Part shown: positions 28,758-31,877 of the stretch, piece after piece
How positions within the stretch are numbered: position 1 is the first letter of the stretch
How the letters are laid out: each line of letters opens with the position of its first letter
Source: a virus
Length of the DNA stretch: 34,738 nucleotides
Virus record (IMG/VR): IMGVR_UViG_3300032304_000220
Location: 1 to 34,738 of that record
Strand: one strand, 5' to 3'
Position numbers and translations under genes: made by a program
The notes under the pieces: model-generated
What the model saw: only the letters and a program-made list of their open reading frames with translations
What the model was told of the DNA's origin: nothing
The model's database searches: none

Positions 28758-28786
28758 AATTTACTAAAGTTTTCTTTAGTTGTAAA
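28758..28786 (-). promoter_or_regulatory. Leftward promoter with operator dyad in the spacer
   Basis: On the minus strand TTTACA (28786-28781) and TAAATT (28763-28758) are 17 nt apart. The spacer and first base of the -10 hold the dyad ACTAAAG-AAAA-CTTTAGT. The 20 bases 28763-28782 are the exact reverse complement of those at the rightward early promoter (31853-31872). A half-site CAACTAAA lies just upstream near 28799. It drives the lipobox gene and the 67-residue gene. Confidence 0.75.
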
Positions 28787-31125: not shown

Positions 31126-31147
31126 ACTTACAAATGTAAAGTAAAAT
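31119..31147 (+). promoter_or_regulatory. Rightward promoter of the repressor gene
   Basis: TTGCCG (31119-31124) and TAAAAT (31142-31147) lie 17 nt apart. The -10 falls within the operator-like dyad of the opposite promoter, so binding there would block both. The start would be near 31154, 35 nt before the repressor ATG. Confidence 0.55.
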
Positions 31148-31188: not shown

Positions 31189-31419
31189 ATGACAGATGCA
31201 CAACTAATCGACCTACTGGGCCGGCCAGCAAAGGTGGCAAAGCTATGTGGCGTAACGGTCCAGGCGGTGTGTCAATGGCGCAACAACAATGCAATTCCAG
31301 CCGCACCGTTGATGCTTATCGCGGCAACAATAGAAAAAGAATCAGCCGGCCTTGTTACCAGGAAAGACCTTTTTCCACAGACTTGGCAATTAATTTGGCC
31401 GGAGTTAAGCACGGTTTAG
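31189..31419 (+). CDS. Cro/YdaS-like repressor
   Basis: This 76-residue DNA-binding protein is the only clear regulator. Residues 13-33 (PAKVAKLCGVTVQAVCQWRN) form a helix-turn-helix with the Cro/YdaS spacing, and AIPAAPLMLIAATIEKESAG to DLFPQTWQLIWPEL is the family's usual second half. There is no peptidase (LexA/CI) domain, so it would not be cleaved in an SOS response. AAAAGGAAAA precedes the ATG. It lies next to divergent promoters that share a symmetrical motif, so it is the likely ligand of the ACTAAAG dyads; this is inference. Confidence 0.85.
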   Translation: MTDAQLIDLLGRPAKVAKLCGVTVQAVCQWRNNNAIPAAPLMLIAATIEKESAGLVTRKDLFPQTWQLIWPELSTV

Positions 31420-31433
31420 TTTTATGATATAGT
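31405..31433 (+). promoter_or_regulatory. Candidate extended -10 promoter before the structured stretch
   Basis: TGATATAGT (31425-31433) fits an extended -10 (TGnTATAAT) with one mismatch. A weak -35, TTAAGC (31405-31410), is at 17 nt. The start would be near 31440, just before the long hairpin. Confidence 0.4.
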
Positions 31434-31439
31434 TACCGT

Positions 31440-31565
31440 ATTGAGGAATTGAACACTCGATACCGTAGGGCTTTAGAGGTAGTTTTGTGGGTTTAGGAAA
31501 TAAGATAAGAGGTATTTTCTAAGCCGTTCAATCACAGAATTACCCCTAAAGCCCTTTTTCTTTTT
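31440..31565 (+). ncRNA. Candidate small RNA: long bulged hairpin with T-tract
   Basis: Segment 31467-31489 pairs with 31533-31555: 23 positions with one A-C mismatch and two G-U pairs. Inside, 31490-31502 pairs with 31513-31525 over 13 positions with two G-U pairs and a 10-nt loop. Between the two stems on the 3' side is a 7-nt bulge, GTTCAAT (31526-31532), exactly complementary to ATTGAAC (31448-31454) just upstream, so a pseudoknot is possible. The outer stem is followed by TTTTTCTTTTT. It could be an independent RNA or a very long terminator of the repressor message. No coding frame with a ribosome site is seen here. Confidence 0.6.
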
Positions 31566-31848
31566 GCACCGTTCAATCGGACTTCCCCCGATAGCAATGC
31601 GGTTAGATCGCCGGCTGGAAAGAATAGATTGGCCTACCAGCACCCGGTATGCGCCACGTAGGCTTAAATGGGCACTACACAAGTTTTAAGGGCCAACGGT
31701 GATAGACAACCCTTTAAACGATTGAACATTAACTTAGGTAGCATTAGTTCAAGTAAAGCAATACCTTCTTGAATGGATGTGGGCTTATCACCCTTGGGGA
31801 ACCTATGACTAAAAAACAACACTAGGGAAAGTACCTATAAAAATATAT
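31566..31848 (+). other. Second half of the gene-free stretch: nested complementary segments (structured RNA or origin)
   Basis: GTTCAATCG (31571-31579) pairs with CGATTGAAC (31719-31727). Within this, GGCCTAC (31631-31637) can pair with GTAGGCT (31658-31664), and GTTTTAAGGG (31683-31692) with CCCTTTAAAC (31710-31719, one mismatch). The loop of the last hairpin holds GGTGATA (31698-31704), complementary to TATCACC (31786-31792), a possible pseudoknot. The stretch has no convincing gene; a minus-strand open frame begins with TTG and lacks a ribosome site. Together with 31440-31565 it fills the only gap over 300 bases. A replication origin is the main alternative. Confidence 0.5.
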
Positions 31849-31877
31849 TTGACAACTAAAGAAAACTTTAGTAAGAT
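31849..31877 (+). promoter_or_regulatory. Rightward early promoter with operator dyad in the spacer
   Basis: A perfect TTGACA (31849-31854) and TAAGAT (31872-31877) are 17 nt apart. Between them is ACTAAAG-AAAA-CTTTAG(T), a perfect 7-bp dyad counting the first base of the -10. The 20 bases 31853-31872 are the reverse complement of 28763-28782. This is the best promoter in the window. It should start the early operon 31920-34699 and perhaps run on through rusA and beyond. Confidence 0.85.

Follow-up and report, generated by a model that had tools for sequence, protein, structure and literature searches.

The hairpin RNA at positions 31440-31565 of the window (the whole 34,738-nucleotide stretch of viral DNA that was analysed) is the 5' module of a larger structured-RNA unit. 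The module comprises a -10 element, a small hairpin (P1), a long kissing hairpin and a U-tract; its pairing is conserved, it lies on the + strand, it is linked to a structured RNA downstream, and it is shared among several such RNAs. Both in the window and in nearly every relative, a second structured RNA begins about 10-20 nt past the U-tract. The class is widespread in freshwater phages, with well over 100 genome fragments as a minimum. An earlier note on this DNA had described the hairpin as a candidate phage small RNA of no nameable family; a structured RNA with no Rfam match is indeed present, but it is not a lone RNA, being the front part of a larger unit. The anatomy of the hairpin RNA is firmly established, and its function stands on weaker footing.

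Anatomy of the site

The features of the site and its immediate surroundings, with the basis for each, are as follows.

31189-31419, + strand: Cro-like repressor gene, directly upstream, given for context only (phrog_35 transcriptional repressor, E 1.1e-15)
31425-31433, + strand: extended -10, TG-A-TATAGT (TGATATAGT), hexamer at 31428-31433; read from the sequence
About 31440, + strand: expected transcription start, from its position relative to the extended -10
31440-31445 with 31456-31461, + strand: core of the small hairpin P1 (ATTGAG with CTCGAT); sequence and folding
31435-31466, + strand: extended form of P1, with additional ACCGT/ACCGT pairing and one C-C mismatch
31448-31454, + strand: kissing strand ATTGAAC in the P1 loop; covariation with the bulge
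31467-31489, + strand: 5' arm of the outer stem, 23 positions; folding, covariation and geometric scan
31490-31502, + strand: 5' arm of the inner stem, 13 positions; folding and covariation
31503-31512, + strand: apical loop AGATAAGAGG, 10 nt; folding
31513-31525, + strand: 3' arm of the inner stem; folding and covariation
31526-31532, + strand: 7-nt bulge GTTCAAT on the 3' side, kissing partner of 31448-31454; sequence and covariation
31533-31555, + strand: 3' arm of the outer stem; folding and covariation
31555-31565, + strand: U-tract (TTTTTCTTTTT); read from the sequence
31578-31806, + strand: downstream structured RNA ("family I"), about 230 nt, with two pseudoknot-like helices; covariation

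The outer stem is paired at 22 of its 23 positions and the inner stem at all 13, which leaves one mismatch in 36 positions, exactly as the earlier note had described. Its reading of the bulge as complementary to an upstream ATTGAAC also agrees with the letters: GTTCAAT and the strand in the P1 loop are exact reverse complements. Folding of positions 31430-31580 as RNA yielded a minimum free energy of -56.6 kcal/mol (z = -6.75), and none of 200 shuffled sequences folded as well. When the window was scanned for this geometry, 31440-31565 was the sole site returned (in two overlapping registers), and the same scan of 100 dinucleotide shuffles returned none. The kissing-hairpin module was defined here by a 13-position inner stem, a 7-nt bulge on the 3' side and an outer stem of about 23 positions; the window site has this geometry together with a covarying complementarity of bulge and loop, a -10 and a U-tract. 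A third GTTCAAT, at 31571-31577 and thus past the U-tract, is also complementary to the P1 loop; it is kept in close relatives only and is probably incidental.

Collection of relatives

Among phages, a BLASTN search with the RNA region of the window matched two Manatee Spring metagenome phages only, and the conserved stretch downstream of the hairpin matched one phage record at 74%. Three other module/RNA queries had no BLASTN match in phages, and a BLASTN search of plasmids was likewise negative. At least 160 loci, mostly on metagenomic phage fragments, were gathered from IMG/VR using motifs of the conserved downstream stretch. The hairpin was not used in this selection, and its recurrence in these loci is therefore an independent test. 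Its letters differ among them while its dimensions are kept: the inner stem has 12-14 positions, the bulge 6-8 nt (mostly 7), the outer stem about 23-24 positions and the apical loop 9-11 nt.

A pattern search for a second hairpin subfamily provided at least 120 loci. With E values from 1e-8 to 1e-19, the covariance model of the window's subfamily found the second subfamily a single time at each locus; it had no match in three hairpin-less loci. Pattern matches in genome contigs (24 in all) were scattered over unrelated AT-rich taxa and were taken as chance. Patterns for the GACCC-type hairpin and family I were absent from 399 genomes of one order, and the hairpin model had no match in 398 Pseudomonadota genomes; both sets are samples, and these negatives are weak evidence.

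Covariation and the kissing contact

Pairing is conserved in the related genomes with compensatory changes, as a covariation analysis proposed by the earlier note has now established. In the window's subfamily, of which 20 members were compared, the helix between the P1 loop and the bulge was paired in 100% of cells; five of its seven pairs had changed on both sides, and one had passed through four pair types. P1 was paired in 98.5% of cells, with a U-A to C-G change at its base. For the whole structure the figure was 95.9%, compared with 31-50% in slid versions.

The contact was also found well outside this subfamily. In 25 divergent, nonredundant hairpin families, the mean loop/bulge score was 7.2, as opposed to 4.8 with swapped partners, and the observed score was reached in none of 5000 permutations. 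Loop and bulge were perfectly complementary in 120 of 127 loci of the second subfamily, with 22 pair types, among the matches listed. Twenty-six structural variants with other apical parts had a complementarity of 8.2 (permutation maximum 6.7), a set in which a few matches may use segments other than the bulge. An additional pairing, between the apical loop and the spacer that follows P1, exists in the second subfamily (score of at least 6 in 16 of 25 families) and is absent from the window's subfamily. As judged from the sequences, covariation proves that the loop-bulge tertiary contact holds while its letters change. What the earlier note had offered as a possible pseudoknot is thus backed by the 20 subfamily members, the 25 families and the 26 variants.

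Strand, promoter and U-tract signals

The outer stems of the relatives contained 91 G-U and 11 A-C combinations; this excess of G-U indicates that selection acts on the + strand RNA. The extended -10 that had been noted before the hairpin is present in the window, although no good -35 was found before it (weak or absent). A -10-like hexamer lies 6-9 nt before P1 in nearly all nonredundant families, usually without a good -35. Of 70 nonredundant loci of the downstream family that bear a hairpin, 68 have a T-tract after the stem. Only one of those 70 loci has a -10-like hexamer between the hairpin and the downstream RNA. Among 15 loci classed as having no strong hairpin, three have an intervening hexamer matching at least 5/6, and weaker hexamers resembling TAATAT or TAAGAT occur in several others.

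The window hairpin has the sequence character of an intrinsic terminator, i.e. a GC-containing stem with a U-tract directly after it; a consensus terminator scanner missed it because loops longer than 8 nt are disallowed by that program. The second subfamily has a closing stem that joins the 5'-terminal bases of the RNA to a segment immediately beyond the U-tract (GCAGA/UCUGC); compensated versions of it occur (AUUACAG/CUGUAAU and GCAAU/AUUGC). The observed mean was 6.34, and the permutation maximum was 6.23. Such a stem is possible only in a read-through RNA, which argues that polymerase crosses the U-tract. A closing stem was looked for in the window's own subfamily and was not seen.

The downstream RNA of the window

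Family I is a new structured RNA family, outside Rfam 15. Both sides had changed in 33 of its 48 proposed pairs, and its covariation score was 0.442; shuffles scored 0.165, and slid versions of the structure no more than 0.121. These values were obtained with a trimmed alignment and a hand-set structure (RNAalifold gave a poor structure on the untrimmed alignment). A pseudoknot between the loop of the first hairpin and a downstream strand covaries and is 100% paired. At some loci the downstream RNA is preceded by a plain hairpin or by none, and it can therefore do without the module. What comes before the structured RNA at three loci (L318, L108 and L110) is a simple hairpin of terminator type with a U-tract, enclosed by an outer stem; this is perhaps a simpler form of the module.

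Interchangeable downstream RNAs

The motif that marks the window's downstream RNA is missing from at least about 90 module sites. Some of these carry a divergent family I, and most carry other RNAs of about 200-260 nt in the same place. One of the latter is Rfam RF02932 (Betaproteobacteria-1 RNA), which was located behind the kissing hairpin at L206, L207, L217, L225, L228, L230, L254, L269, L301, L302 and L304; at L301, L302 and L304, the hairpins are of the window's own subfamily. The matches to RF02932 pass the gathering score (86-107 bits) and start right after the U-tract in many relatives. Among sites gathered with an RF02932 pattern, 38 of 122 nonredundant ones had the strict module directly upstream, and none had it in two control regions; this fraction is inflated because the set includes sites first found via the hairpin pattern, but the contrast with the controls stands. 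Another downstream RNA had an alifold z of -5.6 against shuffled columns, from four nonredundant sequences only, and a third had a weaker structural signal (z = -2.7).

At L244, L278 and L311, the downstream RNA opens like family I and continues as unrelated structured sequence; these mixed RNAs suggest that parts may have been exchanged. L311 (1459-1890) is in public record MW202753, where a hypothetical protein is annotated across the RNA unit, probably as a spurious gene call. Two RNA units are present on one phage contig in two cases, L225/L230 and L156/L171. The two hairpins of the L225/L230 contig have different kissing pairs (bulges AATGTCA and ACATCAC).

Gene neighbourhood

The module and its downstream RNA are found behind varied genes, most often Cro-like, but also glycosyltransferase-like and others; neighbours other than the Cro-like protein of the window were typed by reading their translations. 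In the window, a near-identical 26-base stretch (96% identity) occurs twice, at 31849-31874 (+ strand) and 28761-28786 (- strand). It consists of a -35 plus the palindrome ACTAAAG...CTTTAGT, and a weaker version is located near 31141, before cro. The repeat looks like a putative operator for the Cro-like protein.

Proposed mechanism and alternatives

The reading that we prefer is one of a single promoter, with the hairpin terminating part of the transcripts and read-through yielding a two-domain RNA; going by the sequence signals, we rate its chances as even. Transcription would begin at the small hairpin, driven by the -10 promoter. The long hairpin would then form, and pairing of its 7-nt bulge with the P1 loop would produce a rigid, locked fold. 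The U-tract at the end of the hairpin should halt some of the polymerases, with release of an RNA of about 125 nt. The remaining polymerases would read into the larger structured RNA to make a two-domain RNA of about 370 nt. Given a partial stop with read-through and a locked fold, the module would most likely set the amount of the downstream RNA and cap it with a nuclease-resistant 5' domain. We infer the transcription, the termination and the intramolecular geometry of the unit, and also the read-through, the last because a promoter between the parts is almost never present and because many relatives have the closing stem. Alternatively, a hairpin of this strength followed by a U-tract could terminate nearly all transcripts, with the downstream RNA being made otherwise. 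The more general proposal, of a two-part class of phage RNAs in which a kissing-locked 5' module with a read-through-metering U-tract would be joined to interchangeable, ornate 3' RNAs and the kissing pairs would be self-recognising, is tentative, and we lean slightly against its holding in full.

The ~125-nt kissing hairpin might instead be a stand-alone, terminated small RNA that is itself the functional product (e.g. a shape-based decoy for a host protein), the downstream RNA being independent of it. Nearly every family has its own -10 and U-tract, the shape is kept as the sequence diverges, and one module occurs with differing downstream RNAs, all of which would suit such an RNA. We nonetheless consider it unlikely, as a structured RNA is nearly always found within 10-20 nt of the module whatever genes precede it, a promoter is almost never present between the two (1/70), and the 5' end in one subfamily pairs with bases beyond the U-tract. 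It is quite improbable, in our estimation, that the module serves in assembly, whereby separate copies would be joined into oligomers by the loop-bulge contact (together with, in the second subfamily, that of apical loop and spacer), by analogy to ROOL and GOLLD; the spacing of the parts (a short linker, a 23-bp stem and a 7-bp kiss) would also fit an intramolecular contact. The intermolecular reading must stay in play, however, because ROOL and GOLLD, which are ornate phage RNAs of a kind known to form RNA-only multimers, assemble through intermolecular kissing loops (PMC12286853). Further, the kissing sequences vary between phages and between the L225 and L230 copies, as self-specific assembly predicts.

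Two simpler accounts were also weighed. The position of the hairpin directly after the Cro-like gene, its GC-rich base and its U-tract could be those of an ordinary, if unusually long, intrinsic terminator serving the cro transcription unit. This is very improbable: as the earlier note had argued, 36 stem positions are beyond what a terminator needs, and to these can now be added the covarying loop-bulge contact. Moreover, the hairpin has its own -10, and unrelated genes precede the module in other phages. That the hairpin acts in DNA, as a recombination or replication element, is hardly credible. Modules are swapped between differing downstream RNAs, as such an element might lead one to expect, but G-U exceeds A-C on one strand, the promoter and the U-tract are on that same strand, and the DNA-level hairpin was rejected on the G-U/A-C asymmetry.

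Comparison with known systems

Measured against Rfam 15 and the open literature, the RNA class is new; the mechanism given above is our inference. An Rfam search, also proposed in the earlier note, was run on positions 31440-31806 with Rfam 15; no family reached its gathering cut-off, and hence none can be named (the best sub-threshold hits were microRNA precursor models at E of at least 0.7). Searches of open-access literature for such a kissing-hairpin structure turned up nothing relevant. An RNA of a type III toxin-antitoxin system was considered and rejected, as there is a single unit without repeats and the downstream open reading frames vary, with no common (toxin) gene.

The point of overlap with RF02932 is that it serves as the downstream RNA in some of these units, among them units whose hairpins are of the window's own subfamily. 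Its model, at 120 positions, covers the downstream part only and is without the kissing-hairpin module; it has no match in the downstream RNA of the window, which belongs to another family, itself unmatched in Rfam. The Rfam models of GOLLD and ROOL had no match in the window or in the relatives scanned. These RNAs are similar in being large, elaborately paired phage non-coding RNAs with covarying kissing contacts, whereas the unit described here is about 370 nt long, has a U-tract midway and uses one 5' module for several unrelated 3' RNAs. Intrinsic terminators have the GC-rich stem base and the U-tract directly after it, but not the 36-position stem, the fixed 7-nt bulge with its upstream partner loop, the promoter of its own or the structured RNA behind. 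The pRNA of phi29 is a phage RNA whose loop contacts stay complementary as the sequence changes; its fold, size and genome position differ from those of the present unit, and nothing here points to a packaging role.

RF02932, an orphan Rfam family, gains a 5' context missing from its model, and ornate phage RNAs of several unrelated kinds are found to have one front end in common. Their function becomes approachable through a single module, with a single promoter, the proposed read-through and a contact that swaps of seven bases would break and restore.
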